Position numbers and translations under genes: made by a program. A stretch of DNA of 37,325 bases from a virus, in the IMG/VR virus record IMGVR_UViG_3300019124_000020, positions 1-37,325 of that record; one strand, written 5' to 3'. Each line of letters begins with the position of its first letter. The first letter of the stretch is position 1. Of the stretch, positions 2,094-37,325 are shown piece by piece. Under the pieces are notes generated by a model. The model was not told the origin of the DNA, did no database searches, and saw nothing but the letters and a program-made list of their open reading frames with translations.

Positions 2094-2123
2094 TTGAAAT
2101 CTGTAGCTCGACAGCAATATCAT
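2094..2123 (+). promoter_or_regulatory. Sigma70-type host promoter
   Basis: TTGAAA (2094-2099) and TATCAT (2118-2123) are separated by 18 bases, each matching the sigma70 consensus at five of six positions. The predicted start near 2130 precedes the 50-aa gene, the MarR-like gene and, past the opposite-strand tRNA, the integrase. The local sequence is more AT-rich than the surroundings. It lies in a non-coding stretch (2084-2214) with operator-like repeats just downstream. Confidence 0.5.
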
Positions 2124-2126
2124 CAC

Positions 2127-2170
2127 TTCCCATGGGGAACTGTTGCGGTATGTCAAGGTTCCTCTGGGAA
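2127..2170 (+). promoter_or_regulatory. Pair of operator-like inverted repeats
   Basis: TTCCC-ATG-GGGAA (2127-2139) overlaps the start predicted for the promoter just upstream. A second site, TTCC-TCTG-GGAA (2159-2170), has its centre 31.5 bp away, three helical turns. Both share the half-sites TTCC and GGAA. The arrangement suits cooperative repression by a dimeric winged-helix protein, and such a gene lies directly downstream at 2384. Binding is inferred. Confidence 0.4.
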
Positions 2171-2214
2171 ATATGACTACAACGACTTGGAAAGGAAGAA
2201 AGGAGGACGCGGAC

Positions 2215-2367
2215 GTGTTCTTCGAGCTGTTTAACTACGAAATCTATCTGGAGATCGAGCGTGTGTTGGAACCAGCCAAGCTGTTCGACTGGATTACTTA
2301 CGATGGTACAATTGAGGCGTGGGTGGATAGGTTCCACCTCGTCATCTCACGACGAATGCGTGACTAA
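2215..2367 (+). CDS. Small hypothetical protein, 50 aa
   Basis: I choose GTG 2215 because AGGAGG (2201-2206) lies eight bases before it. An upstream ATG at 2173 would give a 64-residue product but has only a weak GGGAA before it. The protein is rich in aromatic and acidic residues at the start (FFELFNYEIYLEIERVLEP) and ends basic (HLVISRRMRD). It is probably a small alpha/beta protein with no membrane segment. No family is recognised. Codon use is less GC-biased than in the replication genes, consistent with a separately acquired module. It is the first gene after the sigma70-type promoter and sits directly before the MarR-like gene. Confidence 0.5.
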   Translation: MFFELFNYEIYLEIERVLEPAKLFDWITYDGTIEAWVDRFHLVISRRMRD

Positions 2368-2383
2368 CGCGGAAAGGTAGGAA

Positions 2384-2716
2384 ATGAAAACCCTTTGGAA
2401 GCTGTACCGGGCGGTAGAAGAGATGCGGAAGATCGACCCGGAGATGCAGGCACACACCATCAACATCTTCCTGATGGTCTGCATGAACCCAGGGATCACG
2501 ATGAAAGACCTCGGGAATCAGCTTGGTCTCTCGCAGGCAACGATGTCTCGCAACATCGCGGCGCTAGGGAAGGTTCACCGTCTGAACCGCCCTGGTTATG
2601 ACCTTGTTCAGGCTGAAGAAGACCCTGTGGAGCGGCGGCGCAAGATCGTCAATCTCACAGCCAAAGGGAAGCGGGTTCAGGAGTCGCTTCTTTCGATCAT
2701 GAAAGAAGCCGCGTGA
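2384..2716 (+). CDS. MarR-like winged-helix regulator
   Basis: A 110-residue protein with a purine-rich AAAGGTAGGAA before its ATG. Residues about 25-60 hold a helix-turn-helix: GITMKDLGNQLGLSQATMSR followed by NIAALGK. A wing-like segment follows (GYDLVQAEEDPVERRRKIVN) and then LTAKGKR, the order typical of MarR-family winged helices (recognition helix, wing with D-x-R-R, then LT-x-G). MarR proteins bind inverted repeats as dimers. Two candidate operators lie about 215-255 bases upstream, at the start of the same transcript, and the integrase is downstream. I infer a regulator of the integrase module or of the lysis-lysogeny decision. No ligand-binding site can be read, and dimerisation is assumed from the family. 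Confidence 0.75.
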   Translation: MKTLWKLYRAVEEMRKIDPEMQAHTINIFLMVCMNPGITMKDLGNQLGLSQATMSRNIAALGKVHRLNRPGYDLVQAEEDPVERRRKIVNLTAKGKRVQESLLSIMKEAA

Positions 2717-2742
2717 ACCCTGTGAGGGGCGGAGTTAACTGA

Positions 2743-2826
2743 TGGTGCGCCGGGAGGGACTCGAACCCTCACGCCTTGCGGCAACGGATTTTGAGTCCGT
2801 CATGTCTGCCATTCCATCACCAGCGC
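2743..2826 (-). tRNA. tRNA-Leu(CAA), probable attP
   Basis: The reverse complement folds as a complete class II tRNA with encoded CCA. Acceptor arms are GCGCTGG and CCGGCGC with one G-U pair. The D stem is ATG/CAT. The anticodon arm ACGGA-CTCAAAA-TCCGT gives anticodon CAA (Leu, UUG codons). A long variable arm (GCC-GCAA-GGC) marks a leucine tRNA, and the T arm is GAGGG-TTCGAGT-CCCTC. It is the only minus-strand gene seen and lies 27 bases upstream of the integrase start. That suggests an attachment site copied from a host tRNA gene, so integration would restore the host gene. The intact 5' half means it could also be functional. Confidence 0.9.
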
Positions 2827-2853
2827 AAATTAATACGAAAGGAGCATTATACC

Positions 2854-3849
2854 ATGCCCGTGGTTTCTCGCGGGTCGGGCTATCAAGCCACGGTCCACCA
2901 TAAAGGCGAACGATTCCGTCGCCAGTTCAACACTCAGGCAGAAGCTGTAGCCTGGGAAGCTCAAGCCAAAGCCTCGCTCCTTCGGGGTGAACTCCCAGAC
3001 ATGGGAGAAGGAGAGTCAGGGGCACCAGCCACGCTGGAAACCCTCAAAGACCTCACCCATCGCCGGTTCTGGATCGGCACCAAGGCAGAAGAGACGGCAG
3101 TCCGCAACGCCTCCATCTGCATCAGGGACATCGGCAACATCAGTCCCTCCAAGGTCACCACTCAAACCATCGACGCGGTGGTCTTCAAGTGGCAGGACGA
3201 AGGCAAGTCCAACGCGACCATCAATCGCCGCCTGTCGGCCCTCTCGAAGATGCTGAAGTTCGCCAAGGAGCGGGGGTACATCACTTCGGTTCCCAAGATC
3301 GACCGCAAGCGTGAGGGCAAGGGACGCATCCGGTTCTTCACCCCGCAGGAGGAACAGGAGATCATCCAGTGGTTCGAGTTCACCGGCAACAAGGACATGG
3401 CCGAACTCGTGGTGGTCGCCATCGACACCGGGATGCGGCGCGGGGAACTGCTGCGGATCGAGGGTCGGGATGTCAACGACACCCTGATCAACATCTGGGA
3501 GACCAAGAGCAGCCACCCCAGGACCGTCCCGATGACCCAGCGGGTCAAGAACATTCTCCACGCCAGGAAGGAGCGCCTGGGTGAGGGGCTGCTGTTCCCC
3601 AACGTGACCGAGGACTCCATCCGGTACGCCTGGGACATCATGCGGGAGAACAAGGGGCAAAGCGACGATCCGCAGTTCGTCTTCCATACCCTCCGACACA
3701 CCTTCGTGTCGCGGCTGGTGCAGCGGGGCGTGAACCTGAAACAGGTCTCCGAACTCGCTGGTCACACCAACATCGCCACCACCATGCGCTACGCACACCT
3801 CGCACCGCGCAACTTGGTGGACGCGATCAAGGTACTGGAACCGGCCTGA
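2854..3849 (+). CDS. int: Tyrosine-family integrase
   Basis: A 331-residue tyrosine recombinase that would integrate the phage by strand exchange at an att site. I start at ATG 2854, nine bases after AAAGGAG (2838-2844); an open frame upstream runs into the tRNA and has no such site. The N-terminal part (about residues 5-60) looks like an arm-binding domain, followed by a SAM-like core-binding domain (about 65-160). The catalytic domain shows TGMRRGE with Arg195, HTLRH with His278 and Arg281, AGH with His304, and the nucleophile Tyr313 in MRYAHL. All essential residues are present, so the enzyme should be active. It is adjacent to the tRNA-Leu, and inverted repeats follow it. Integrases are known in some T7-like marine and other podoviruses but are not typical of the group. 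Confidence 0.93.
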   Translation: MPVVSRGSGYQATVHHKGERFRRQFNTQAEAVAWEAQAKASLLRGELPDMGEGESGAPATLETLKDLTHRRFWIGTKAEETAVRNASICIRDIGNISPSKVTTQTIDAVVFKWQDEGKSNATINRRLSALSKMLKFAKERGYITSVPKIDRKREGKGRIRFFTPQEEQEIIQWFEFTGNKDMAELVVVAIDTGMRRGELLRIEGRDVNDTLINIWETKSSHPRTVPMTQRVKNILHARKERLGEGLLFPNVTEDSIRYAWDIMRENKGQSDDPQFVFHTLRHTFVSRLVQRGVNLKQVSELAGHTNIATTMRYAHLAPRNLVDAIKVLEPA

Positions 3850-4034
3850 TTTTTCCCACGAGATCACGCGACAGAGCAATCTCGGCGTTACGCCACACGC
3901 CACACCACGTGGCGTTTGGTGGTGTAGCAGCCGATTTTGTTCCCCTCGTGGATACCTCAATCTCTTATGAATCAAGCACTTAGGAGAACGACCGATCTTC
4001 ACACAGGACTCAAAAGGCAACGCGCAATCTATCC

Positions 4035-4060
4035 ACGTGAGTAACTGATTCACGTATAAT
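4035..4060 (+). promoter_or_regulatory. Possible -10 box within inverted repeat
   Basis: ACGTGA (4035-4040) and TCACGT (4050-4055) form an inverted repeat with a 9-base spacer, and the right arm runs into a perfect TATAAT (4055-4060). No convincing -35 box lies upstream (TCCACG at the expected place). It could be an activator-dependent or repressor-controlled host promoter reading towards the RNA polymerase gene, but a terminator follows within 15 bases. Confidence 0.3.
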
Positions 4061-4073
4061 CCCCCCAGAAGAT

Positions 4074-4097
4074 GCCCACCTCAGTGTGGGCTTTCTT
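4074..4097 (+). terminator. Intrinsic terminator
   Basis: The stem GCCCAC (4074-4079) with GTGGGC (4086-4091), a six-base loop, and a TTTCTT run make a short rho-independent terminator. It would end host transcripts coming from the integrase module before the phage promoters. Confidence 0.55.
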
Positions 4098-4204
4098 CGC
4101 CCGACAACTATCCACTTCGTCAACTTATTCAGGACCACGCCACCAGTCGGTGTCGCGTGTGGCGTAGCCATGTCCTGACACGGGTTCGGAGAGGGTCGGA
4201 AGTC

Positions 4205-4223
4205 GATTTCCACACAGTTATGG
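4205..4223 (+). promoter_or_regulatory. Phage RNAP promoter P1
   Basis: GATTTCCACACAGTTATGG, first of a tandem pair 26 bp apart upstream of the phage RNA polymerase gene. It matches the 19-bp motif found eight times here. Placement before the polymerase gene suggests positive autoregulation. Transcription probably starts at the terminal GG, by analogy with T7. Confidence 0.8.
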
Positions 4224-4230
4224 CCCGCTC

Positions 4231-4249
4231 GATTTCCACACAGGTATGG
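4231..4249 (+). promoter_or_regulatory. Phage RNAP promoter P2
   Basis: GATTTCCACACAGGTATGG, identical to P1 except at one position (T to G). Its transcript would carry the whole 12-bp repeat array in its leader, starting a few bases upstream of it. Confidence 0.8.
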
Positions 4250-4262
4250 GGGATCAGGGGGT

Positions 4263-4346
4263 CACTGAAGTTGAACCTGAAGGGGCAACTGAAGTGGTCA
4301 CTGAAGTGGACTACTGATGTGTTTCCTGAAGGTGATTACTGATGTT
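4263..4346 (+). repeat. Seven-copy 12-bp repeat array
   Basis: CTGAAG or CTGATG begins at 4265, 4277, 4289, 4301, 4314, 4326 and 4339, giving steps of 12, 12, 12, 13, 12 and 13 bases. The best unit is ACTGAAGTGG plus two bases. The array fills the leader between promoter P2 and the RNA polymerase gene. It could be a protein-binding iteron set, a replication-start element or a leader translation control. Confidence 0.7.
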
Positions 4347-4366: not shown

Positions 4367-6886
4367 ATGACGATCACCGAAGAGATCATTCAGTCCATCG
4401 AAAGCAATCCTGAGTGGCAGGCCAAGATGGACCGCCAGTTCGCCCTGGAGGAGCGGATGAGGAGCATGGGCATCGACCGCTACTGGAACCAAGCCAGCCG
4501 CGCAGCCGAGCGGGGTGCCGAGACCAACACCCGCCCGGTGCGTCGTCTGATGAACCACGCCATCGAACAGGTGTCAGCCGGGGTGGATGCCTTTGTCGCC
4601 CAGGCGTACTCGGGCAAGGCCGGTGTCCGTCACACGGCGGTCAAGTACATCGAGCAACTGGACGCCGAGGCGGTGGCCCTGATGACCGTCCGCTGTGTCC
4701 TCGATGGGGTCACCAAGGGTGAAACCCTGGTTGCCCTGTCCCGCCGCATCGGCTCCATGCTCATGGACGAGGTGCAGTTCCGTCAGTTCAAGGCCCAGAA
4801 CGGCCAGTCCTACGAGTCCCTGCGCCAGAAGTACGAGAAGCAGTCCAAGCACTACCGTCACAAGCGCAACGCCATGCGCCACCACATGGCCGAGAAGGGG
4901 ATCGAGGTGGAAGAGTGGCCGGTCACCGACCTGATCCAAGTCGGGGCCAAGTGCATCGACATCATGGTCGAGACCACCAAGCTGGTCGAGCAGATCACCC
5001 GTACCGTGGACACCAAGCGCCAGGAGACCATCGTCGTCGCCACCAAGGAGACGATGGAGTGGATTCAGGAGGAACACAACCGCTGCGCCGCCCTGTCCCC
5101 GGTGCTGCTGCCCACCATCGTCCCGCCACGTCCCTGGACGACGCCCAAGGATGGCGGTTACTGGACCAACCGTGTCCGTCGCATGTCCCTGGTCAAGACC
5201 TACTCCAAGGGCTACCTTCAGGAACTGGCCGACCACCACATGCCGGATGTGTATGACGCCGTGAACGCGATGCAACACACCGCCTGGGCGATCAACCTCA
5301 AAGTGCTGGAGGTGGCGAAGACCCTGTGGGACAACCAGAGCCAGCTTCCCGTGGTGCCCTCTGCCGTGGACATCGAGATTCCCCAGCGCCCTGCCTTCCT
5401 TGATGACAGCCGTCCGAAGGAAGAGTGGACGGAGCAGGAGCTTGAGCAGTTCCGCGAGTGGAAGCGCAACGCCACCGACACCTACACCATGAACGCCAAG
5501 CTGAAGTCGCTGCGCCTCCAGTTCATCAAGACCCTCATGGTCGCGGAGATGTTTGCCGAGGAGGAGGAAATCTACTTCCCCCACCAGCTGGACTTCCGTG
5601 GCCGGGTGTACGCCATCCCGATGTTCCTCAACCCGCAAGGGGCAGACCTCTCTCGTGGCCTGCTGGAGTTTGCGAATGGGGTTGCAATCAAGGATGAGTG
5701 CGCTCGTTCGTGGTTAGCTATCCACTTGAGCAACTGTTACGGCAACGACAAGGTTAGCCTGGAGGACCGCGTGAAGTGGGTCGAGGACAACGAGGAAGCC
5801 ATCCTGGCGGTGGCCGCGGACCCCTACTCCAACAAGATGTGGGTCGATGCGGACAAGCCCTGGCAGTTCCTGGCTGCCTGCTTCGAGTGGGCCGGGTTCA
5901 AGGCCGAGGGCTGGGGCTACATCAGCACCCTGCCGATCCAGATGGACGGCTCGTGCAACGGTCTCCAGAACTTCTCCGCTGCCCTGCGTGATCCCATCGG
6001 CGGTGCTGCGGTGAATCTTGTGCCTGCCGATCTGCCCCAGGACATCTACCAGAAGGTGGCCGACAAGGTGCTGGAGCGTGTGAAGCAGGACGCCTGCAAT
6101 GCCGAGGACGACGAGACCATGAAGATCGCCCAAGGCTGGTTGGAGTTCGGCATCACCCGCAAGGTGTGCAAGCGCCCTGTCATGACCCTGGCCTACGGTG
6201 CCAAGGAGTACGGCTTCAAGCAGCAGGTATTCGAGGACACCGTGACCCCGGCGAAGTACGACAAGTCCAAGCCCTTCCCCTGGTCGGGTTCCGGCTGGAA
6301 GGCTGCGGACTACATGGGTCGGGTGATCTGGGAGTGCGTGGGTCAGGTCGTCGTTGCCGCACGACAGGCGATGGACTGGTTCCAGAACTCCGCCCGTGCC
6401 GCTGCCAAGGAAGACCTCCCTGTCCGGTGGACCACCCCGGATGGACTGGTCGTCCTCCAGGCGTACCCCAAGCTGGAGACCAAGCGGATCGACATCACCT
6501 TCAACGGGCACCGTCACCTCCTGACCGTCGCTACCGGCTACGCCAAGGAGATTGACCGTCAGCGCCAAGCCAACGGCATCAGCCCCAACTGGGTCCACAG
6601 CATGGACGCCAGCCACATGCGGGCGACGATCCGTCAGGGATGGCGTGAGGGTATCCGCTCGTTCAGCCTGATCCACGACAGCTACGGCACCCACGCGGGT
6701 AACACCGCTGCCCTGGCTGCGATCCTGCGTGAGACCTTCGTCGAGATGTACTCGGAGGACGTGCTGGAGAAGTTCAAGGCCGAACTTGAGTTGCAGCTAC
6801 CCGAGGGTAAGAAGCTGTCACCGCTGCCCCGCAAGGGCACCCTCGATCTGGAGTTGGTGAAGGACTCCAGCTTTTTCTTTGCCTGA
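4367..6886 (+). CDS. Single-subunit phage RNA polymerase
   Basis: An 839-residue homologue of T7 RNA polymerase (883 residues) that transcribes the middle and late genes. Visible landmarks are FPHQLDFRGRVYAIP, motif A DGSCNGLQNFSA with catalytic Asp527, motif B KRPVMTLAYGAKEYGF with Lys602 and Tyr610, HSMDASH, and HDSYGTHA with catalytic Asp771. The C-terminus is FFFA, like the FAFA foot of T7. The region matching the T7 specificity loop, about residues 705-740, differs from T7, consistent with the different promoter motif found here. The start has CAGGAG eight bases upstream. The gene sits behind tandem phage promoters and an integrase, so its first expression must come from a host promoter upstream. 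Confidence 0.97.
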   Translation: MTITEEIIQSIESNPEWQAKMDRQFALEERMRSMGIDRYWNQASRAAERGAETNTRPVRRLMNHAIEQVSAGVDAFVAQAYSGKAGVRHTAVKYIEQLDAEAVALMTVRCVLDGVTKGETLVALSRRIGSMLMDEVQFRQFKAQNGQSYESLRQKYEKQSKHYRHKRNAMRHHMAEKGIEVEEWPVTDLIQVGAKCIDIMVETTKLVEQITRTVDTKRQETIVVATKETMEWIQEEHNRCAALSPVLLPTIVPPRPWTTPKDGGYWTNRVRRMSLVKTYSKGYLQELADHHMPDVYDAVNAMQHTAWAINLKVLEVAKTLWDNQSQLPVVPSAVDIEIPQRPAFLDDSRPKEEWTEQELEQFREWKRNATDTYTMNAKLKSLRLQFIKTLMVAEMFAEEEEIYFPHQLDFRGRVYAIPMFLNPQGADLSRGLLEFANGVAIKDECARSWLAIHLSNCYGNDKVSLEDRVKWVEDNEEAILAVAADPYSNKMWVDADKPWQFLAACFEWAGFKAEGWGYISTLPIQMDGSCNGLQNFSAALRDPIGGAAVNLVPADLPQDIYQKVADKVLERVKQDACNAEDDETMKIAQGWLEFGITRKVCKRPVMTLAYGAKEYGFKQQVFEDTVTPAKYDKSKPFPWSGSGWKAADYMGRVIWECVGQVVVAARQAMDWFQNSARAAAKEDLPVRWTTPDGLVVLQAYPKLETKRIDITFNGHRHLLTVATGYAKEIDRQRQANGISPNWVHSMDASHMRATIRQGWREGIRSFSLIHDSYGTHAGNTAALAAILRETFVEMYSEDVLEKFKAELELQLPEGKKLSPLPRKGTLDLELVKDSSFFFA

Positions 6887-6887
6887 T

Positions 6888-6903
6888 CCTATCCACCGTG
6901 TCA
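6888..6903 (+). repeat. CCTATCCAC-GTGTCA motif, copy 1
   Basis: CCTATCCACCGTGTCA begins one base after the RNA polymerase stop. A 15-of-16 match lies at 11117 in the gap before the DNA polymerase gene. The TCCAC and GT elements resemble the core of the phage promoters, so this may be a weak or divergent promoter. Shorter CTATCCAC occurrences lie at 4028 and 4107. Confidence 0.35.
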
Positions 6904-6930
6904 TGTGTTGACGCGGTGGATGAAGCAACC

Positions 6931-6949
6931 GATTTCCACACAGTATTGG
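6931..6949 (+). promoter_or_regulatory. Phage RNAP promoter P3
   Basis: GATTTCCACACAGTATTGG lies in the gap after the RNA polymerase gene and directly upstream of the 56-aa gene. Its last bases belong to the TAT-TGG subclass shared with the promoters at 7139 and 8890. Confidence 0.8.
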
Positions 6950-6969
6950 ACAGACCACAGGAGGACCAC

Positions 6970-7140
6970 ATGCAGACCATCGACCGCGAAGAACTGACCG
7001 CTTACCGCATCGACGACGTGAAGCTCGATCTGGCAATCGCAATCTGGGAGGAAGGACACGACATCCCCTTCGTTCTGGAGTGCGACCTCCTGGCTTCCGG
7101 CTATGACGTTGCCACGCTCCGCGAGAAGTACATGGCCTGA
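6970..7140 (+). CDS. Hypothetical middle protein, 56 aa
   Basis: I start at ATG 6970, six bases after AGGAGG (6959-6964); an open frame upstream has no ribosome-binding site. The 56-residue product is acidic and predicted helical, with two helices around LDLAIAIWEEGHD and FVLECDLLASG and a short C-terminal helix VATLREKYMA. No family is recognised. It is flanked by two phage promoters, at 6931 and overlapping its stop codon at 7139, so it should be strongly expressed as soon as the phage polymerase appears. In T7 this position holds host-takeover proteins, but nothing in this sequence identifies such a role. Confidence 0.65.
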   Translation: MQTIDREELTAYRIDDVKLDLAIAIWEEGHDIPFVLECDLLASGYDVATLREKYMA

Positions 7141-9416: not shown

Positions 9417-11048
9417 ATGAGCGAGTGGGTAGCGACCCACCTCCCTTGCCCCGCTTGCGGTTCGTCCGATGCCTACAGCATCAACGACCGTGGGTGGGGC
9501 AAGTGCTTTTCGTGTGGGAAGAACATCAACGAAGAAGGGGGCACGAGACCCATGACCGAGAAACAATCCAAGGACAAGCCTCTTGTCCCCTTCGGTGAAT
9601 ACCGTGCGCTGAACAAGCGAGGCATCACCGAGGAAACCTGCAAGAAGTTCGGCTACTTCATCGGAGAGTACAAGGGCGAGACCGTCCAAGTCGCTCCGTA
9701 CCGTGACGCCGAAGGCACGGTGGTTGCACAGAAGGTGCGGACCGCCTCGAAGAAGTTCTCCACCACAGGCGATTTCAAGGAAGTCGTCCTGTTCGGCCAG
9801 CACCTGTGGAACGCAGGGGGCAAGCGCCTCGTGATCACCGAGGGTGAGATCGACTGCCTCTCCGTGAGCCAAGTACAGGGCAACAAGTGGCCGGTCGTGT
9901 CGATCCCCAACGGTGCCCAAGGTGCCGTGGCCGCGATCAAGAAGTCCATCGAGTGGGTGTCCTCCTTCGAGGAGGTCGTGCTGATGTTCGACATGGACGA
10001 GCCAGGACAGGAAGCTGCCCTGAAGGTGGCCGAGTTGCTCCCACCGGGTAAGGCCAAGATCGCTACCCTCCCCGCCAAGGACGCCAACGAACTGCTCCAG
10101 AACGAGCAGGGACAGGAGATCGTCAACGCCATCTGGCAGGCACGAGCCTTTCGCCCCGATGGTCTGGTCAGCATCGACGAGATCATCGAGGAGGTCGAGC
10201 GCCCCATCGAATGGGGTCTGCCCTGGTGGCTGGAGTCTCTGACCAAGCTCACCTACGGTCGCCGCCTTGGTGAGGTCTATGGCCTGGGCGCTGGCACTGG
10301 TGTGGGGAAGACCGACTTCCTCACGCAGCAGATCGCCTACGACATCACCGTTCTCCACGAGAGCGTGGGTGTCATCTTCCTCGAACAGAAGCCAACTGAG
10401 TCTGCCAAGCGGATCGCCGGAAAGATCGCAGGCAAGCGGTTCCACGTCCCCGACGCAGGATGGACCGTCGATGAACTGAAGGAGAACGTCGCCAAGCTGA
10501 AGGGCAAGGTGACCTTCTACGACTCCTTCGGTGAGACCGACTGGGAAGTCGTGAAGGGAAAGATCAGGTACATGGCCGTGACCCTCGGTCACCGTCTGAT
10601 CTACGTGGACCACCTCACTGCGATGGCTGACACCGCCAACGAGAAGGAGTCCCTTGAGCAGATCATGAAGGAGATGGCCGGTCTCGCCAACGAGTTGAAG
10701 ATCGTCATTACCTTCGTGTCCCACCTGTCCACCCCTGAGGGCAAGCCTCACGAGGAAGGAGGGCGCGTGATGATCCGCCACTTCAAAGGCTCCCGCGCCA
10801 TTGGCTTCTGGTCGTACTTCATGTTCGGCCTGGAACGCAATCAACAAGCTGAAGACGAGATCGACCGTCAGACCACGCTGTTCCGTGTGCTGAAGGATCG
10901 GTACACCGGCCAAGCAACAGGCCACGTCATCGCTCTCGGCTACGACGCTGAGACAGGGAGACTCTATGAGCAACAAGCCCCCGCTGACTCCTACGGTTTC
11001 GAGGACGAAAGCAGTCCTGCTCTTGCCACCGAAGGCGAAGACTTCTGA
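9417..11048 (+). CDS. Primase-helicase, gp4-like
   Basis: A 543-residue bifunctional enzyme (T7 gp4 is 566 residues) that makes RNA primers and unwinds DNA as a hexamer. The zinc-binding primase end has Cys11, Cys14, Cys30 and Cys33. The TOPRIM core shows ITEGEIDCLS with Glu142. The helicase domain has Walker A GAGTGVGKT with Lys298, VIFLEQKP, a Walker B-like LIYVDHLTAM, and SRAIGFWS. The C-terminus is acidic and ends with Phe (EGEDF), as in T7, where it contacts the DNA polymerase. An internal ATG at codon 46 with GAAGGGGG upstream could yield a helicase-only form lacking the zinc finger, like T7 gp4B. The start directly follows the coiled-coil gene. Confidence 0.96.
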   Translation: MSEWVATHLPCPACGSSDAYSINDRGWGKCFSCGKNINEEGGTRPMTEKQSKDKPLVPFGEYRALNKRGITEETCKKFGYFIGEYKGETVQVAPYRDAEGTVVAQKVRTASKKFSTTGDFKEVVLFGQHLWNAGGKRLVITEGEIDCLSVSQVQGNKWPVVSIPNGAQGAVAAIKKSIEWVSSFEEVVLMFDMDEPGQEAALKVAELLPPGKAKIATLPAKDANELLQNEQGQEIVNAIWQARAFRPDGLVSIDEIIEEVERPIEWGLPWWLESLTKLTYGRRLGEVYGLGAGTGVGKTDFLTQQIAYDITVLHESVGVIFLEQKPTESAKRIAGKIAGKRFHVPDAGWTVDELKENVAKLKGKVTFYDSFGETDWEVVKGKIRYMAVTLGHRLIYVDHLTAMADTANEKESLEQIMKEMAGLANELKIVITFVSHLSTPEGKPHEEGGRVMIRHFKGSRAIGFWSYFMFGLERNQQAEDEIDRQTTLFRVLKDRYTGQATGHVIALGYDAETGRLYEQQAPADSYGFEDESSPALATEGEDF

Positions 11049-13365: not shown

Positions 13366-13455
13366 ATGCCGCTGCTGTCGATCTGGCTCATGATCTTCGG
13401 CCCCTGGTTCATCCCCGGCGCTCCCAAGCGTGAGCAGAAGGAGGACGACGAATGA
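13366..13455 (+). CDS. 29-aa membrane peptide
   Basis: ATG 13366 follows the previous stop by two bases, with AAAGGG upstream. The product is a hydrophobic helix (LLSIWLMIFGPWFI) followed by a charged tail (KREQKEDDE), so a single membrane anchor with a cytoplasmic tail is likely. Its stop overlaps the ThyX start as ATGA. Function is unknown. It is one of the few holin-sized membrane genes seen near lysis-related functions, but nothing else supports a lysis role. Confidence 0.5.
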   Translation: MPLLSIWLMIFGPWFIPGAPKREQKEDDE

Positions 13456-14132
13456 AGCAGGGTGCGCTGTACGTCGATCACATGGGCACCGACTTGTCGG
13501 TCGTCCGTGCAGCCAAGGTGTCGTTTGCCAACGATGCGACCGTCCAGCGGTTCATCGACGACATCGAGGCCAAGCAGCTTGGGTGCCGCAGCCACTCGGC
13601 GTTGATCCGATACCTGGCCCGGCACAACCACTGGACTCCGTTCGGTCACACCGCGATCACCTTGCGGATGGCCGCTCCGGTCCCGATCCGTACCCAGTGC
13701 TTCAAGCACAAGGTCGGCTTCGTGGAGAACGAGGAGTCCCGCAGGTACATCAGCAGCCGCCCCGCGCTGTTCGTCCCCGACGAGTTCCGCAAGGCTCCCG
13801 AGGACGGCAAGACCAAGCAGGGCAGCGGTGGTGTCCATCCCAAGTCGCGCATGTGGCGCTTGGCCTACCAGCTTCACACCGAGCAGAGCATCAACCTGTA
13901 CATGGACATGCTGGCCGATGGCGTTTGCCCCGAGCAGGCCCGCTTCGTCTTGCCGCAAGGCTGCATCGTGAACTGGTACTGGACCGGCAACCTCGCCGCC
14001 TACGCCCGTTTCTTCAACCAGCGCAGCGACTCCCATGCCCAGAAGGAGGTGCAGGAGTTGGCCGCGCTTGTCGCATCCATCGTCGCGCCCCTGTTCCCCG
14101 TGAGCTGGGCCGCGCTCACTGAGAAGAGGTGA
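13452..14132 (+). CDS. thyX: Flavin-dependent thymidylate synthase
   Basis: A 226-residue ThyX that methylates dUMP to dTMP using methylene-tetrahydrofolate, FAD and NADPH. The signature region reads KHKVGFVENEESRRY (residues 85-99), a phage variant of the ThyX motif RHRxxSxNExSxR. It keeps N-E-x-S-R but has Lys-His-Lys at the front. SHSALIRYLARHNHWTPFGH is the conserved N-terminal helix region, and CPEQARFVLPQG the later dUMP-binding part. The start overlaps the preceding stop. With the MazG-like enzyme and ribonucleotide reductase downstream, it forms a dNTP supply cluster that would let the phage make dTMP independently of a host ThyA. Confidence 0.92.
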   Translation: MKQGALYVDHMGTDLSVVRAAKVSFANDATVQRFIDDIEAKQLGCRSHSALIRYLARHNHWTPFGHTAITLRMAAPVPIRTQCFKHKVGFVENEESRRYISSRPALFVPDEFRKAPEDGKTKQGSGGVHPKSRMWRLAYQLHTEQSINLYMDMLADGVCPEQARFVLPQGCIVNWYWTGNLAAYARFFNQRSDSHAQKEVQELAALVASIVAPLFPVSWAALTEKR

Positions 14133-15442: not shown

Positions 15443-15738
15443 ACCACCCCCCGCACTACGAGCGGAAGGCGGATTCGCTGTCCATTGCAGTCCGTGCTGC
15501 CCTGACCGACAACGGTGACATCGACCCCCTGAACCTTGAGTGCTTCGAGGCGATGGCTTCGATGCTCACCGTTGAAGAAATGCGCGGGTATCTGCGTGGC
15601 AACAGCTTCAAGTACCGCTGGCGCTACACCCACAAGAACGGGACCGAAGACCTCCGCAAGGCTCTCTGGTACGAGAAGAAGCTGCTCCTGCTGGAGGAAA
15701 CGGTCGCTCGCTACATCGACCCCGAGAAGAACAAATGA
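15430..15738 (+). CDS. DUF3310 protein
   Basis: A 102-residue protein with the DUF3310 pattern: VNHPPHY near the N-terminus, LECFEAMASM, YLRGNSFKYRWRYTHKNGTE with DLRKALWY, and a final helix (KLLLLEETVARYI). The family is common in phages, where it is sometimes labelled a nucleotide kinase-like protein; its reaction is not established. It lies between the exonuclease and the MazG-like enzyme and overlaps both, which suggests a link with nucleotide metabolism. The start is 13 bases inside the exonuclease gene. Confidence 0.88.
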   Translation: MDSVNHPPHYERKADSLSIAVRAALTDNGDIDPLNLECFEAMASMLTVEEMRGYLRGNSFKYRWRYTHKNGTEDLRKALWYEKKLLLLEETVARYIDPEKNK

Positions 15739-16064
15739 GATTCGCTGAATACCAAGAACAAGCTCACCCCTTCGCCGAGTACAAACACGACGAGTACCCC
15801 TTCCTCGGCCTCGCTGAAGAGACCGGCGAGTTCCTGGGCATCGCCGCCAAGATCGCCCGAGGCGACGACCTCGCGGCTCGCTTCGGCTCCCAGGAAGCTG
15901 TCGTCCAGAAAGCCCTCAAGGAAGCGGGTGACGTGCTGTGGATGCTGTCCGAGTGCCTGACCCAGATGGGCCTGTCGCTCGAAGATGCCGCCAAACTCAA
16001 CATCGAGAAGCTGACCGACCGCAAGGCCCGCAACGTGATCAAGGGGAGCGGGGATGACCGTTAA
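15735..16064 (+). CDS. MazG-like nucleotide pyrophosphohydrolase
   Basis: A 109-residue all-alpha NTP pyrophosphatase. The metal site EExxE is Glu28, Glu29 and Glu32 in LAEETGEF, and ExxD is Glu63 and Asp66 in KEAGDVLWML. LEDAAKLNIEKLTDRKARNV matches the C-terminal helix of the family. MazG-type enzymes hydrolyse dNTPs or ppGpp-related nucleotides; phage forms have been proposed to adjust nucleotide pools, but the substrate cannot be read from sequence. It overlaps DUF3310 by four bases and the reductase by eleven. Confidence 0.88.
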   Translation: MRFAEYQEQAHPFAEYKHDEYPFLGLAEETGEFLGIAAKIARGDDLAARFGSQEAVVQKALKEAGDVLWMLSECLTQMGLSLEDAAKLNIEKLTDRKARNVIKGSGDDR

Positions 16065-18051
16065 GCACGTGCCCTCAACACGCGCCCAGGTCGTCACCCG
16101 CCGCACTTACAACCGCCCCCTGGACGCCGCTGGTGTGGTGTTCGAGGACTGGACGCAGACTGTGGATCGGGTGATGGGCCATCAGCGGTGGTTGTGGGAA
16201 CGTGCCCAAGGTCGCGGCCTGGACATCGTTCAAGCCGCCGAACTGGACGAACTGCGCGACCTCCTGCTGGAGCGCAAGGTGTCCGTCGCCGGTCGCACCC
16301 TGTGGCTCGGTGGCACCGAGATCGCCAAGCGCCGGGAAGCCAGCCAGTTCAATTGCTCGTTCACCCACATCGAGACGGTGTACGACGTTGTGGATGCCCT
16401 GTGGCTCCTGCTGCAAGGCTGCGGTGTCGGCTTCCGTCCCATCGTGGGGCAGCTGACCGGCTACCAGAAACCAATCCAGAAGCTGACCGTGATCCGCTCC
16501 AAGCGGACCTGCAAGGGTGGCCTGGAACACAACGTGGAGACCTTCGATGCTGACACCGGAGTGTGGACCCTCAAGGTCGGGGACAGTGCCGAAGCCTGGG
16601 CCAAGTTCGTCGGAAAGCTGGTGGCCCACAAGTTTCCCGCCCGTGAACTTGTACTCGACTTCTCCGAGGTACGTCCGGCCGGCGAGCGACTTTCTGGCTA
16701 CGGATGGATCAGCTCCGGTGACGCCGCCTTCGCCAAGGCTTGCACCGAAATCCACAACATCCTGAATCGCCGTGCAGGCTCCCTGCTGTCCCGCATCGAC
16801 ATCCTCGATGTGGTGAACTGGCTGGGCACCGTCCTGTCCTCGCGCCGGTCTGCGGAGATCGCGCTGATGCCCTTCGGGGAGGAAGAGTGGGAGGAGTTCG
16901 CCGCTGCCAAACGCGAGTTCTGGGTCAACAACCCGCAACGCGCCCAGTCGAACAACTCGCTGATCTTCAACCAGAAGCCGACGCGGGAGCAGCTGGAGCG
17001 CATCTTCGACCTGATGGTGTCGTCAGGTGGATCTGAGCCTGGATTCATCAACCGGGAAGCTGCGACCCGCCGTGCCCCCTGGTTCAAGGGCGTGAACCCG
17101 TGCGCCGAAATCCTGCTCGGGAACAAGTCCTTCTGCAACCTCGTGGAGGTGGACGTAGGCAAGTTCAGGGGTGACTCCTCGGGCCTGATCCGTGCCGTAG
17201 AGTTGGCCGCTCGTGCCTGCTACCGGCAGACGTGCGTGAACCTTCAGGACGGCATCCTGCAAGAGGCGTGGCACCTGAACAACCAGTTCCTGCGGCTGCT
17301 GGGGGTTGGACTCACGGGCATTGTTCGTCGCCCTGATCTATCCACCTATGCATACGAGGAACTGAAGCGGGCAGCGGTCGCCGCCGCCTACGCGATGGCT
17401 GACAGCCTGGGGATGCCGCGTCCGAAGAACGTCACCACGGTCAAGCCCTCGGGCACCGTGTCGAAGATCATGGACACGACCGAAGGGGTCCACAAGCCGC
17501 TGGGCCGGTACATCTTCAACAACGTGGTGTTCTCCAAGCACGACCCGCTGGTGCCGGAACTGCGTGGTGCTGGCTACCGGGTGTTCGACCACCCGCTGGA
17601 CAAGGATTCCGTCCTGGCAACCCTGCCGGTGGACTGGAGTGACGTTCCGTTCGACAAGGTGACCAAGGAGGTGGATGGCAAGACCGTCCAACTGGAGGTC
17701 AACCTCGAATCCGCGGTGGCCCAGTTGGAGCGGTACAAGATGCTCCAGACCCACTGGTGTCAGCAGAACGTGTCCTGCACGATCTCCTACGACGCCTCGG
17801 AGGTTCCGGCCATCATCGACTGGCTGCTGGCGAACTGGGACTCCTACGTCGGTGTGAGCTTCCTGTTCCGCGCCGATCCCACCAAGACGGCGAAGGACTT
17901 GGGCTACCTCTACCTGCCCCAAGAAGTGGTGACCGAGGAGACCTTCAAAGCCTACGTGGCGAACCTGTCTCCCATCGAGATCGACAAGGGCAACAGCCTG
18001 GACGAACTTCAGGACGACGGCTGCGCTACGGGTGCCTGCCCGATCCGCTGA
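16054..18051 (+). CDS. nrdJ: Class II (B12-dependent) ribonucleotide reductase
   Basis: A 665-residue monomeric adenosylcobalamin-dependent ribonucleoside triphosphate reductase, which makes dNTPs from NTPs without oxygen dependence. Active-site residues line up with the Lactobacillus leichmannii enzyme: Cys101 in FNCSFTH, radical Cys350 and Glu352 in NPCAEI, and Cys361 in SFCNLVEV. The 350-361 spacing equals that of Cys408 and Cys419. The C-terminal redox pair Cys657 and Cys662 in CATGACPIR sits four positions from the end, as in that enzyme. KPSGTVSKIMDTTEGVHKP is the phosphate-binding loop. It depends on host cobalamin. The start lies inside the MazG-like gene with AAGGGGAG upstream. A terminator follows. 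Confidence 0.95.
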   Translation: MTVKHVPSTRAQVVTRRTYNRPLDAAGVVFEDWTQTVDRVMGHQRWLWERAQGRGLDIVQAAELDELRDLLLERKVSVAGRTLWLGGTEIAKRREASQFNCSFTHIETVYDVVDALWLLLQGCGVGFRPIVGQLTGYQKPIQKLTVIRSKRTCKGGLEHNVETFDADTGVWTLKVGDSAEAWAKFVGKLVAHKFPARELVLDFSEVRPAGERLSGYGWISSGDAAFAKACTEIHNILNRRAGSLLSRIDILDVVNWLGTVLSSRRSAEIALMPFGEEEWEEFAAAKREFWVNNPQRAQSNNSLIFNQKPTREQLERIFDLMVSSGGSEPGFINREAATRRAPWFKGVNPCAEILLGNKSFCNLVEVDVGKFRGDSSGLIRAVELAARACYRQTCVNLQDGILQEAWHLNNQFLRLLGVGLTGIVRRPDLSTYAYEELKRAAVAAAYAMADSLGMPRPKNVTTVKPSGTVSKIMDTTEGVHKPLGRYIFNNVVFSKHDPLVPELRGAGYRVFDHPLDKDSVLATLPVDWSDVPFDKVTKEVDGKTVQLEVNLESAVAQLERYKMLQTHWCQQNVSCTISYDASEVPAIIDWLLANWDSYVGVSFLFRADPTKTAKDLGYLYLPQEVVTEETFKAYVANLSPIEIDKGNSLDELQDDGCATGACPIR

Positions 18052-23153: not shown

Positions 23154-24230
23154 ATGCTGGTGACTGATAGCACCACTGGTGTGTCGGAGGCTCGGCAGCG
23201 TGACCGCGACGAAGGTCTGATCACATCGCTGAATGAAGCCTTCCGAGACGACTTCACAGCTGGTCTGGACCCGAGCAACTGGCGTGTCGTCATCCAGGGG
23301 CCGAACCAGACTCTCGACAACAGTGTCCCGTCCGAGTTCCGCATCAACGCCGGAACGGGAGCGAACCAAGAGACCATCATCCGTAGCCGTCGTGGCTTCA
23401 AGATGCCCTTCCGCGTGTGGTTCACTGGTCGCTTGTCGCAGCGTATCGCCAACCAAGAGTTCTGCTTGGAGTTGGTGAACGAGGTGGGCGACATGGCCGC
23501 CCGCTGGCACTTCGACGGCATAACGGCCACCAACGCGAAGATTCGCACCGTGAACGGCGGCGTCAGCGGTACTGAATCGACGCTGACCATTGCCACCACT
23601 GCGAGCAACACGATCTTCGAGATCGACATGGGCGTTGACGAGGTGAACTTCGCGCAGCTTGCTGTGGACAGCACGGCGAACCGGACTGTCACGGCCTGCC
23701 GCACGGTCCGCACCCCTGACCCGAACGACACCTACTACGTTCAGATTCGGGCCAAGAACCTGGGAAGCGCCCCGGCGAGCAATACCGCGCTGTTCATGGA
23801 AGCGGTGTCCGTCATGGACATCACCGAGGTATGCGCGGAGGTGAACGGTCGAGGCGACAGCGCCGGTAACCGTGCTGCGGTCGTCGTCGTGGCAAACGCA
23901 CCCAACCGTCCTGCCTACGGCTGGAACAACGACACGACCACTGCCCTGGCTGCGAACGCCACCTTCACGGGCACCTCGCGGGATCACAACACGAGCAACG
24001 CGGCCCTGAACTTCGTGGCGACCTTCAGCACGGACCAACCGGGAACTGCGCGGATCGAAATGTCCAACGACGCCACCACGTGGCGACGGGCTACCCCGGA
24101 TACCGCTGTAGCTGCGAACTCTCCGGTGACGCTTTCGGTTCCGATCCTGACCCGGTACTACCGCGTCATCTACGTGAACGGGGGAACCGCTCAGGGCTTC
24201 CTGATGATCAACTCTCGCTCGGTGCAGTGA
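23154..24230 (+). CDS. Putative head decoration or minor capsid protein
   Basis: A 358-residue protein with TTGGAGAA before the ATG. It is not part of the T7 gene set. The first 220 residues are beta-rich (RVVIQGPNQTLDNSVPSEFR, FRVWFTGRLSQRIANQEFCL, ARWHFDGITATNAKI) and look like a jelly-roll or lectin-like sandwich. The last 80 (LNFVATFSTDQPGTARIEM to YYRVIYVNGGTAQGFLMI) look like a second, Ig-like sandwich. There is no catalytic signature. Its place directly after the capsid gene, isolated by two related terminators, suggests a capsid surface (decoration) protein made in large amounts. The domain calls are by eye. Confidence 0.5.
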   Translation: MLVTDSTTGVSEARQRDRDEGLITSLNEAFRDDFTAGLDPSNWRVVIQGPNQTLDNSVPSEFRINAGTGANQETIIRSRRGFKMPFRVWFTGRLSQRIANQEFCLELVNEVGDMAARWHFDGITATNAKIRTVNGGVSGTESTLTIATTASNTIFEIDMGVDEVNFAQLAVDSTANRTVTACRTVRTPDPNDTYYVQIRAKNLGSAPASNTALFMEAVSVMDITEVCAEVNGRGDSAGNRAAVVVVANAPNRPAYGWNNDTTTALAANATFTGTSRDHNTSNAALNFVATFSTDQPGTARIEMSNDATTWRRATPDTAVAANSPVTLSVPILTRYYRVIYVNGGTAQGFLMINSRSVQ

Positions 24231-34377: not shown

Positions 34378-35379
34378 ATGGCTCTTGCAAGAGTTAGCTA
34401 CACGCAAAACGTGAGCGGGAACAGGAACTTCACCGTCCCGTTCTCGTACCTCTCTCGGGACCACATCTCGGTCACTGTCAGCGGTGTGCCAGCTGCCTTC
34501 ACGTGGCTCAACGACAACACGGTCAACCTGAACGTGGCTCCCGCTGTTGGCGTCACGGTGGAGATTCGCCGTGCGACCGCCCGAGAGAACCTGCTGGTGC
34601 AGTTCAACGACGGCTCGGTGATTTCCGAGACGGACCTGCGGCTGCTCTCCCAGCAGACCTTTTTCCTCGTTCAGGAAGCTGATGACCTCGCCCGTGAGAC
34701 TCGGGAGATTTCCGACCTCGCGGCGTCCCAGGTTTCCGGTGCGGTGAACACTGCGAACAGTGCAGTGGTGACCGCCAACGGCGCGAGCGCCACGGCCAAC
34801 ACCGCCCTGAACACCGCGAACCAAGCCCTGACGCAGGCGCAGAACGCGAACAACCGGGCGACCTCCGCTGAAGCTGCGGCGGCTTCCGCAGCGACTGACG
34901 CGCAATCGGCTGCGTCGAACGCGAACATAGCTGTCAACACCGCCGGGAATCTCCAGGCGATGGTGAACCAGTTGTACAACGACGTTCAGGCGCTGGTTGG
35001 CGGCGACCTCTCGGACTTCACCAAGAACTCGGACAACCTCGCCAGCCTGACGGACAAGAACCTTGCACGTCAGAACCTCGGCCTGGGCAATGTCAACAAC
35101 ACGTCCGACATGGACAAGCCGGTTTCGACCGCTGTGCAGACGGCTCTCGCCGGGAAGGCGAACACCAGTCACCAGCACAGCTGGAACGACATCACGAACA
35201 AGCCCACGACGTACACGCCCAGCACTCACTCCCACGCTTCGCTCGACACAGCGAACTGGAAGATCGAGCAGTCTGGAACGTCCCTGGTGTTCTTCTACAA
35301 CGGCTCTCGGCGCTTCAGCCTGGACGCCTCCGGGAACCAGATCGTCAGCGGAAACATCACTGCTTTCGGATCGCCATAA
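34378..35379 (+). CDS. Tail fibre protein, gp17-like N-terminus
   Basis: A 333-residue fibre. Residues 1-110 match the T7 tail-fibre attachment domain: RVSYTQNVSGNRNFTVPFSY, NDNTVNLNVAPAVGVTVEIR, ISETDLRLLSQQTFFLVQEA. Next is a coiled-coil-like Ala/Asn/Thr repeat (about 115-210), then LGLGNVNNTSDMDKPVS and two HxH motifs (HQHSWNDITNKP, THSHASL) of the type that bind metal in trimeric fibres. The end (FFYNGSRRFSLDASGNQI) is small. It is shorter than T7 gp17 (553), so receptor binding may be handed to the adhesin encoded next. Confidence 0.9.
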   Translation: MALARVSYTQNVSGNRNFTVPFSYLSRDHISVTVSGVPAAFTWLNDNTVNLNVAPAVGVTVEIRRATARENLLVQFNDGSVISETDLRLLSQQTFFLVQEADDLARETREISDLAASQVSGAVNTANSAVVTANGASATANTALNTANQALTQAQNANNRATSAEAAAASAATDAQSAASNANIAVNTAGNLQAMVNQLYNDVQALVGGDLSDFTKNSDNLASLTDKNLARQNLGLGNVNNTSDMDKPVSTAVQTALAGKANTSHQHSWNDITNKPTTYTPSTHSHASLDTANWKIEQSGTSLVFFYNGSRRFSLDASGNQIVSGNITAFGSP

Positions 35380-35381
35380 CC

Positions 35382-36365
35382 ATGCCTGTGAAATCGTCTG
35401 GTGCGCTGTCTTTCAGCGACATTCGGGCGGAGTTCGGGGGCAGCGGGGCAATCAGTCTCAGCCAGTATTACCGTGGCGGGGGCCGAGTGCCCCTCTTTGA
35501 GGACGTGAACGCCTCGGTCCCGACCTCCGGTCAAATCAGCTTCAACCAGTTCTACAGCTCCCTGAACGGCTTTGTCTTCCAACAGACCATCTCGGGGAAC
35601 ATCCAGAACTATCACCTCAGGAACGCAGCCATCTCCTGGGGGTGGAACCAGTCCCTTCCGCTGTTCGCGAAGGTGACCATCAATGGTGGTGCCTGGGTGA
35701 CCGCAAGTTCAACCGGCATCTACGCCTTCGACACCGGGGATTCCTATCCCGCCTACTCCCGCCTGATCCTCGTGAACCACGGGTACATCGTGGGAATGGG
35801 AGGTAACGGTGGTCAGGGTGCAGGTTCCAGCTGGGGTAGCGCCATCGGCGGCTCCGGTGGTGGTTGGGGTGGTCCCGCTTTCGGTGCTCGCGTGGGCATC
35901 ACCGTCTGGAACTACGGAATCATCGCTGGTGGAGGCGGTGGCGGTGGGGGTGGGCAGAGCGGCACTTATGCCTACTCCGACAAGTACAGCACTTACTACT
36001 ACGCCTTCAGTGGTGGTGGTGGGGGCGGCGGTCGCAGCGGCCTCACCAACGCTGGCGGTGGCTCGAATGGCTCCGCGCAGGGTAACTACGCCTACCACGG
36101 TGGTTGGGGTGGCACTGGAACCCTCAACGGTCAAGGCGGTGGTGGTGCCGGTGGCTACCTGAACGGCAACCTCAGGGGTGGTCCCGGTGGTGCTGGTGGT
36201 GGCTGGGGAGAGAACGGCGGTCCCGGTGGAGATCGCTGGCACCCGCAGAACCTGACCTCCGGGGTCGCTGGTCCCTATGGCGCTGGCGGGGGTGGCTACG
36301 CCCTGCACTGGAGCTGGAACATTTCCTGGGGTAACTGGGGAACTGTTATTGGAGGAATCGGATGA
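35382..36365 (+). CDS. Polyglycine-rich receptor-binding adhesin
   Basis: A 327-residue protein beginning two bases after the fibre. Residues 1-60 hold two copies of a phage motif: SGALSFSDIRAEFGGSGAIS and SGQISFNQFYSSLNG. Next is a beta-rich domain. From about residue 145 there are ten or so glycine-rich runs (such as GGGGGGGGGQSG, GGGGGGGRSG, GGPGGAGGGWG) alternating with Tyr/Trp/Asn loops. This resembles the polyglycine-II sandwich of T4-family gp38 tip adhesins. It would sit at the fibre tip and bind the host receptor, with the loops between glycine runs setting specificity. The gp38 relation is inferred from composition. Confidence 0.7.
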   Translation: MPVKSSGALSFSDIRAEFGGSGAISLSQYYRGGGRVPLFEDVNASVPTSGQISFNQFYSSLNGFVFQQTISGNIQNYHLRNAAISWGWNQSLPLFAKVTINGGAWVTASSTGIYAFDTGDSYPAYSRLILVNHGYIVGMGGNGGQGAGSSWGSAIGGSGGGWGGPAFGARVGITVWNYGIIAGGGGGGGGGQSGTYAYSDKYSTYYYAFSGGGGGGGRSGLTNAGGGSNGSAQGNYAYHGGWGGTGTLNGQGGGGAGGYLNGNLRGGPGGAGGGWGENGGPGGDRWHPQNLTSGVAGPYGAGGGGYALHWSWNISWGNWGTVIGGIG

Positions 36366-36985
36366 ACAACATTCCCTACAAGTACGAAATCACTGCCGTC
36401 CACAACGATGGGCGGTGGATGGAAGTCGTTTACACGTCGCCCGGTCGTGACACTCACCGTGTGGCTGTACGGCTTCCGTATGAGAACGAAAGCCTGGAAG
36501 CGGTGATCCACTCGTTCGCGCCCCTGCCTCACTGGTACGCCAAGGAGGCTCCGGTGCAGGACATCCAGGCCGGCACGACGGGCAGCTACACACCTGACGA
36601 TGGGCCGAAGCTGTCCCTCTTCGAGCGGACCCGCCTGGGCAAGCTGGCCGAGATCGCGGACTGGCGCTACATGCACGAAATCCGCGGAGTCCTTGTGGAT
36701 GGCATCAAGGTGCGGACGGACCGGACCTCGCAAGCCCAACTCACCTCGGCCTACATCAGCCTGACTCAAGGGCTGGTGGAGACGATCCAGTGGAAGGGTG
36801 ATGACGGCACGTTCCGAGCCATCGGCCTGGAAGAAGTCCAGAAGATGCTCGAAGCGGTCAACCGGCACGTCCAGGCTTGCTTCGCCGCAGAAGCCCTCCT
36901 CGTCGAACAGGTGAACGCCGCCCGTTCGGTCGAAGAGATTCAGGGCATCCAGCTGCCAGAAATCCTCTACACCGGAGACACCTGA
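36362..36985 (+). CDS. DUF4376-containing tail protein or fibre chaperone
   Basis: A 207-residue protein starting in an ATGA overlap with the adhesin. The N-terminal 65 residues are a beta-rich segment (YKYEITAVHNDGRWMEVVYT). Residues about 85-195 show the DUF4376 pattern: KLAEIADWRYMHEIRGVLVD, Q-Q-like SQAQLTSAYISL, WKGDDGTFRAIGLEEVQKML and CFAAEALLVEQV. DUF4376 occurs in proteins encoded beside tail fibres, often thought to be assembly chaperones or virion parts. Immediate overlap with the adhesin suggests it helps that protein fold or attach. Confidence 0.75.
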   Translation: MNNIPYKYEITAVHNDGRWMEVVYTSPGRDTHRVAVRLPYENESLEAVIHSFAPLPHWYAKEAPVQDIQAGTTGSYTPDDGPKLSLFERTRLGKLAEIADWRYMHEIRGVLVDGIKVRTDRTSQAQLTSAYISLTQGLVETIQWKGDDGTFRAIGLEEVQKMLEAVNRHVQACFAAEALLVEQVNAARSVEEIQGIQLPEILYTGDT

Positions 36986-37325
36986 TGCGCGGCACTCACC
37001 CAATCGCCAAGTACGAGGTGTTCGGGTGGGTGGTGCATCACATGGGAATGGAGCCGGGGAAGTCTTACCGGGCCTTCATCAGCCCGGGGATGACCCGTGC
37101 TTCCTTCCCTTCGCGCACCCTCTGGACTCGTGGGAGGGTTGTCGGCAAGAGCGACACCGGCATCCTGGCTGAAGACCGGGTGCCCGGACTGTTCACGCTC
37201 GACATGCCTGATCCCGTCCCGGGCAACTACACCTTCGAGGCACTGGACCACACCGAGTGGTGGTGCATCGACCGCAAGTTCAACCAAGGCCAGATTCCAG
37301 AAGTGACCCCGCTGCGGGTCAAAGT
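36985..37325 (+). CDS. Beta-rich tail-region protein, cut by window end
   Basis: The ATG overlaps the preceding stop as TGATG, and the frame is open to the window end (113 codons seen). The visible part is beta-rich with an aromatic core: KYEVFGWVVHHMGMEPGKSY, then LWTRGRVVGKSDTGILAEDR, then PGNYTFEALDHTEWWCIDRK. The last pattern resembles cupin-type or other double-stranded beta-helix phage proteins, but I cannot name the family. It belongs to the fibre-adhesin operon. The C-terminus is missing. Confidence 0.6.
   Translation, partial: MRGTHPIAKYEVFGWVVHHMGMEPGKSYRAFISPGMTRASFPSRTLWTRGRVVGKSDTGILAEDRVPGLFTLDMPDPVPGNYTFEALDHTEWWCIDRKFNQGQIPEVTPLRVK

Follow-up and report, generated by a model that had tools for sequence, protein, structure and literature searches.

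The window analysed here is the whole 37,325-nucleotide stretch of the IMG/VR virus record IMGVR_UViG_3300019124_000020 (positions 1 to 37,325). It includes, in this order, a gene for a MarR-like regulator (marR, positions 2384 to 2716, plus strand), a leucine tRNA gene on the minus strand (2743 to 2826), a gene for a tyrosine integrase (int, 2854 to 3849, plus strand), and the gene for a T7-type single-subunit RNA polymerase (RNAP, 4367 to 6886, plus strand). The RNAP matches PF00940 with an E-value of 1e-112 and is 64% identical to that of Pseudomonas phage LUZ100 (accession number OP329100), the closest annotated relative of the window phage, which has been described as a T7-like phage with temperate features (PMC10134795). 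The major capsid protein (MCP), primase-helicase, DNA polymerase and integrase of the two phages are 82, 74, 71 and 51% identical, respectively, and their proteins are collinear from gp08 to the tail fibre, save for one swap in the gp24/ThyX region. The single-subunit RNAP and the T7 gene order place the window among the temperate T7-like phages (Autographiviridae), and a MarR-like gene and a tyrosine integrase gene directly ahead of the RNAP gene are features of the LUZ100 group. A preliminary description of this DNA had proposed a lysogeny-type module preceding the RNA polymerase gene of a T7-like phage. The position of the RNAP gene agrees with this, and the module is further borne out by the LUZ100-like gene order and proteins and by related prophages found integrated in bacterial genomes (see below).

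The 110-aa regulator is a winged-helix protein of the PHROG_9665 family ('transcriptional regulator', E-value 2.5e-32), which is found beside int in T7-like phages, and is 56% identical to the MarR-like protein of LUZ100. Among the MarR profiles, PF12802 (MarR_2) gave an E-value of 7e-5 and 23.3 bits against a curated cut-off of 27, and PF01047 gave 17.4 against 24.6; HTH_24 was just over its cut-off. Hence, the assignment made earlier holds for a small winged-helix regulator of PHROG_9665 but not at the curated score of either MarR profile, and the protein is called only 'MarR-like' here. No close relatives were found when the viral contigs were searched via this protein. The gene is preceded by a small conserved open reading frame (ORF, 2143 to 2367, plus strand), a homologue of LUZ100 gp09 (33% identity over 46 aa). 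The genes at 2215 and 2384 do have the lower GC content previously noted, with 48.4% for the ORF from 2215 to 2367 and 55.3% for marR against 61.0% for the window.

Further upstream, the sigma70-type promoter reported at 2094 is present as a match to TTGAAA-18-TATCAT (2094 to 2123, plus strand), but such matches are not above the level of shuffled sequence (two sites between 1950 and 4400 against 1.0 ± 0.9 expected). A second sigma70-like match, TCGACT-16-TACAAT (2285 to 2312, plus strand), occupies the position of the tested promoter P3 of LUZ100. The operator-like repeats also reported for this region were not found, as positions 2094 to 2214 include neither a repeat family nor an inverted pair.

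The 331-aa integrase matches Phage_integrase (PF00589, E-value 4.7e-25) and the PHROG_1 integrase family (1e-66). Its catalytic set, R195, K218, H278, R281, H304 and Y313, is invariant in an alignment of eight T7-like phage integrases, in agreement with its earlier description as catalytically complete. A search with the integrase over genome contigs gave few close matches. The integrase of Planctomycetales bacterium ZRK34 (L005, coordinates 10001 to 10984) is 47% identical to that of the window, and no match to a T7-type RNAP was detected in the ZRK34 genome; thus, integrases of this type may also serve another kind of element.

The tRNA gene, likewise reported before, was identified by ARAGORN as tRNA-Leu(CAA) and scored 54.9 bits with the Rfam tRNA model against a gathering score of 29. 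It is complete, including A73 and an encoded CCA. An extended -10 element, TGGTATAAT, located upstream of it (2843 to 2851, minus strand) is a possible host promoter for the tRNA, as judged by a perfect consensus match only. This element is poorly conserved in the relatives, and a conserved host promoter was rejected since -10-like hexamers are only weakly in excess there (43% versus 18% in shuffles).

The predicted attP core GGACTCAAAA is located between int and the RNAP gene at positions 4006 to 4015 (plus strand), about 157 nt past int, and matches the anticodon loop of tRNA-Leu(CAA). The core is short, and the chance of such a match in this gap of the window alone is 0.06; its position was predicted by homology with the junctions of related prophages, and host tRNA-Leu(CAA) is accordingly the expected target. 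Neither a half tRNA extending from the T-arm to CCA nor a 5' half of tRNA-Leu was found in the int–RNAP gap of the window. Two features of tRNA-dependent lysogeny are therefore seen in the window: a complete phage tRNA of the isotype targeted by the attP core (tRNA-Leu(CAA) and the CAA core at 4006 to 4015), and a short core with no half tRNA able to rebuild the host gene.

The predicted core is flanked by an inverted repeat of 18 nt (94% identity), the strong one in the region, with its left arm at 3889 to 3906 and its right arm at 4149 to 4166 (both given on the plus strand), which may represent either arm-type sites of the integrase or operators of the MarR-like protein. Similar GCCACA-rich motifs flank the core on both sides in prophages G387 and G953, as read from the sequences and with no statistics attached; because the cores of these two differ, arm-type sites appear the likelier function of the repeat. 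Motif TATGAATCAAGCACTT (3966 to 3981, plus strand) is also present in prophage L003 at the same place 5' of the core. A terminator-like hairpin with a T-rich tail lies between the core and the RNAP gene (4074 to 4091, plus strand), and the number of such hairpins equals that in shuffled sequences. Two tandem copies of a phage-RNAP promoter-like motif, TCGATTTCCACACAG[TG]TATGG, follow at 4203 to 4249 (plus strand). The motif recurs at 6933, 7141, 8892, 18108 and 21762, and has six matches in the window against 0.01 expected. Five degenerate copies of a sequence around GGTCACTGAAGT, mostly with 12-nt spacing, occur immediately 5' of the RNAP gene (4247 to 4332).

Elsewhere in the window, positions 767 to 1174 of this T7-like phage encode a member of the gp82 family of Mycobacterium phage L5 (PF25735, 2e-39), and positions 7 to 654 a GP88 family protein. 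The gene at 16054 to 18051, near those for ThyX (13452 to 14132) and MazG (15735 to 16064), codes for a protein of 665 aa that weakly matches B12-dependent ribonucleotide reductase; in this place LUZ100 has no more than a gene of 198 nt with the annotation ribonucleotide reductase. A 358-aa protein with a weak DUF6385 match, for which a LUZ100 counterpart was not found, is encoded between the capsid and tail tube genes (23154 to 24230). The contig stops after the tail-fibre region (34378 to 37325) and has no matches to the LUZ100 genes for the holin and for the small and large terminase; hence, part of the genome is missing on the right.

The site of integration in relatives was established by reading both junctions in five related prophages, G387, Xanthobacter YC-JY1, G1025, G1030 and G1037. 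In these, the cores measure 9–13 bp and fall within the anticodon loop of a tRNA-Leu gene of the host. Integration leaves that gene unrepaired, and each prophage has an entire tRNA-Leu of its own with that anticodon. G387, with RNAP and MCP 60 and 74% identical to those of the window, has the RNAP gene at one end and the marR-tRNA-int segment at the other. Its attL and attR hold the 5' and 3' halves of one tRNA-Leu(UAG), flanking the RNAP end and the int end, respectively. The 13-bp core CTGGATTTAGGTT is the sole sequence common to both ends, and the cargo tRNA-Leu(UAG) lies between marR and int. In a sister genome without the prophage the site is unbroken (94% identity over 155 nt). Xanthobacter YC-JY1 shows the same split with UAA and an 11-bp core, GACTTAAAATC. 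A complete tRNA beside int had suggested a classical rebuilt tRNA gene in Xanthobacter, and this was rejected, as that tRNA proved to be the cargo, with the split in the host gene lying 25 bp farther along.

The rejoined halves from G387 and Xanthobacter were accepted by ARAGORN as intact tRNA-Leu genes, and pattern scans of these two genomes found no intact gene for the lost tRNA besides the cargo. The cargo and the broken host gene match at 69 of 85 positions in G387 and 71 of 85 in Xanthobacter. As the two differ by about one-fifth, the cargo was not copied recently from the broken gene.

In G1025, whose integrase is 87% identical to that of LUZ100, the anticodon is UAA and the core is GACTTAAAA. 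Joined together, its two junctions give CAACAGACTTAAAAGGTCTTGCATCC, which is the sequence following int in LUZ100 itself, exactly up to one base past the core; this defines the position of attP in LUZ100. G1030 and G1037 are integrated in UAG genes. Single junctions were read in G1033 (attL, UAG) and L003 (attR, CAA). L003 has marR, tRNA-Leu(CAA) and int in the order of the window; after these comes GATTCAAAATCC...GCCGCTACCA, which is the 3' half of a second tRNA-Leu(CAA). A search for prophages of this type at tRNA-Leu(CAA), as the preliminary description had suggested, thus gave a relative ending in the 3' half of that host gene but not the window phage; among the genome contigs related prophages were found, but the window phage itself was not found integrated. 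As a negative control, prophage G953, whose integrase shares 46% identity with that of the window, has a 21-bp non-tRNA core and no tRNA near int. The core of G953 (L058/L059) lies immediately 5' of a gene resembling that for a ribosome-hibernation factor. Such non-tRNA cases conform to expectation, as do the classical ones, in which half tRNAs are brought by a Roseomonas prophage (3' half of tRNA-Ser, no cargo tRNA seen) and by HTVC109P (5' half of tRNA-Leu).

Taken together, the module ahead of the RNAP gene is very probably a lysogeny cassette with tRNA-dependent integration, belonging to a temperate, T7-like member of the LUZ100 group; lysogeny of the window phage itself is predicted from its relatives. 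Judged from sequence comparison, the tRNA gene at 2743 to 2826 would be a replacement gene and not the attachment site, which would lie downstream of int. By analogy with LUZ100, marR and int would be transcribed by the host RNA polymerase. The integrase would then recombine the ~10-bp core at 4006 to 4015 with the anticodon loop of the host tRNA-Leu(CAA), as is seen in the relatives. The host gene would be cut with its 5' half beside the RNAP gene and its 3' half beside int and, as in the related prophages, neither half would be completed by phage DNA. The junctions expected for the window are the 5' half of tRNA-Leu(CAA) with GGCAACGCG ahead of RNAP, and CACACAGGACTCAAAA followed by the 3' half beside int. 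The complete tRNA-Leu(CAA) of the phage, located between marR and int, would replace the lost gene and so allow the lysogen to live, and precise excision would restore the host tRNA. According to a hypothesis from the LUZ100 paper (PMC10134795), the MarR-like protein may repress the phage polymerase, probably by acting at the phage promoters that immediately precede the polymerase gene.

For a survey of the clade, integrases encoded on the same piece as an RNAP were grouped at 80% identity into 46 clusters; 23 of these have a tRNA-Leu near int. In all 23 cargo-bearing clusters (6 CAA, 13 UAA and 4 UAG) the int–RNAP gap includes a core matching the anticodon of the cargo. Relabelling gave 10.5 matching cores on average (23 were reached in none of 100,000 trials) and shuffled gaps gave 3.6; since the strict core patterns were fixed after the first examples were known, the figures measure how well the pattern fits and do not amount to a blind test. 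In the same gap, 13 of the 23 clusters lacking a whole tRNA have a half tRNA, and none of the 23 with cargo does (~1e-5, hypergeometric, worked by hand from the counts). The integrase tree shows a minimum of 14 changes of label (an anticodon or none), and changes between CAA and UAA occur inside one supported group that holds L095, a near-copy of LUZ100. Thus, joint changes of core and tRNA have taken place on more than one occasion. The nearest integrase to that of the window in this tree is from a contig, L088, that includes no such tRNA, which counts against tRNA-dependent integration of the window phage as set out above.

On balance, it is probable that temperate T7-like phages share, across the clade, the strategy of carrying a whole leucine tRNA with an anticodon that always follows the attP core, to the exclusion of the classical half-tRNA attP, and that they have switched several times between CAA, UAA and UAG by joint change of core and tRNA. 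The tRNA would then act as an addiction-like gene, making loss of the prophage other than by precise excision costly or lethal.

A partly decayed module, from which the phage integrates but keeps no stable lysogeny, is the alternative that survives best, and is nevertheless unlikely. LUZ100 gave no stable lysogens in the published trials (PMC10134795), and T7-like cyanophages integrate without lysogeny (PMC8776855); both observations also weigh against the explanation preferred here. Decay is countered by the open integrase gene with all catalytic residues, the complete tRNA, and the many related prophages in genomes.

Phage tRNAs are known both to supply codons and to replace tRNAs cut by host anticodon nucleases, and the tRNA of the window could serve lytic growth in either way, its closeness to int being incidental. 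Two genes annotated as tRNA splicing ligases, which stand right after tRNA-Leu(UAG) in Mesorhizobium phage Lo5R7ANS (L048, coordinates 5497 to 6978) and perhaps provide repair against such nucleases, speak for this role. However, it predicts neither the agreement of anticodon and core in 23 of 23 clusters nor the mutual exclusion of half and whole tRNAs, and is improbable. Although tRNA genes next to integrases often mark att sites, and although an origin by imprecise excision was proposed for the tRNA of LUZ100 by its authors (PMC10134795), it is highly improbable that the tRNA gene at 2743 to 2826 is the attachment site itself or its remnant, excised imprecisely from a former host, because all the prophages read are broken downstream of int and have the RNAP and marR-tRNA-int at opposite ends, and because the cargo differs from the broken host gene to the extent given above.

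A replacement tRNA suggests a reason why such phages retain a leucine tRNA next to int, and makes the anticodon of that tRNA a predictor of the host gene in which the prophage should sit. It also gives LUZ100-type phages, whose failure to form lysogens in published trials bears on the safety of phage therapy, a concrete integration site. The module is real, well explained and largely known, and the generalisation is useful; the clade-wide rule and the reinterpretation of the LUZ100 tRNA are new here. Neither the clade-wide correlation, nor the exclusion between whole and half tRNAs, nor an application of the scheme to LUZ100 was found in the literature searched, which did not extend to Zhao 2019 and Boeckman 2022, and these may contain part of it.

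LUZ100 resembles the window in the order of marR, minus-strand tRNA-Leu, int, phage promoter and RNAP, and in an attP core of the same kind, confirmed by G1025. It differs in carrying tRNA-Leu(UAA) instead of CAA, and the available part of the LUZ100 paper (PMC10134795) explains the tRNA by imprecise excision and names no attP. The control of lysogeny in integrase-bearing T7-like phages had been called poorly described in the preliminary account, whereas the arrangement, including the idea of a replacement tRNA, is already published (PMC8631192, PMC6811365, PMC10134795). Like the window phage, the Rhizobium phages of Paadamvirus (vTRX32-1 and RHEph01; PMC8631192) are T7-like, with a 12-bp core, CAGATTTAGGTT, in a host tRNA-Leu and a complete tRNA-Leu of their own that is said to replace the broken gene; the anticodon is UAG and not CAA. 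Their tRNA lacks the core motif, which the authors suggested shields the phage from integrating into itself (PMC8631192). In contrast, the tRNA-Leu(CAA) of the window retains 10 nt of the core, and hence any guard against self-integration cannot rest there on a missing core.

The Fonsibacter prophage uv-Fonsiphage-EPL and pelagiphage group III (PMC6811365) are also T7-like, and have an 11-bp core, a tRNA-Leu(TAG) site and a tRNA-Leu of their own that replaces the host gene. They represent a different phage group with SAR11 hosts. Mycobacteriophages Fionnbharth and Gaia (PMC10865867) share with the window a short core in a host tRNA gene that is not rebuilt and a phage tRNA of the same isotype, although they are unrelated actinobacteriophages with lambda-like integrases and mostly tRNA-Lys, Gaia having tRNA-Leu(CAA). 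It is for these phages that tRNA-dependent lysogeny was defined and the need for the tRNA proved by deletion (PMC10865867). As this mode of lysogeny has been described both in mycobacteriophages and in T7-like phages infecting Rhizobium and Fonsibacter, a further case of it is represented by the window.
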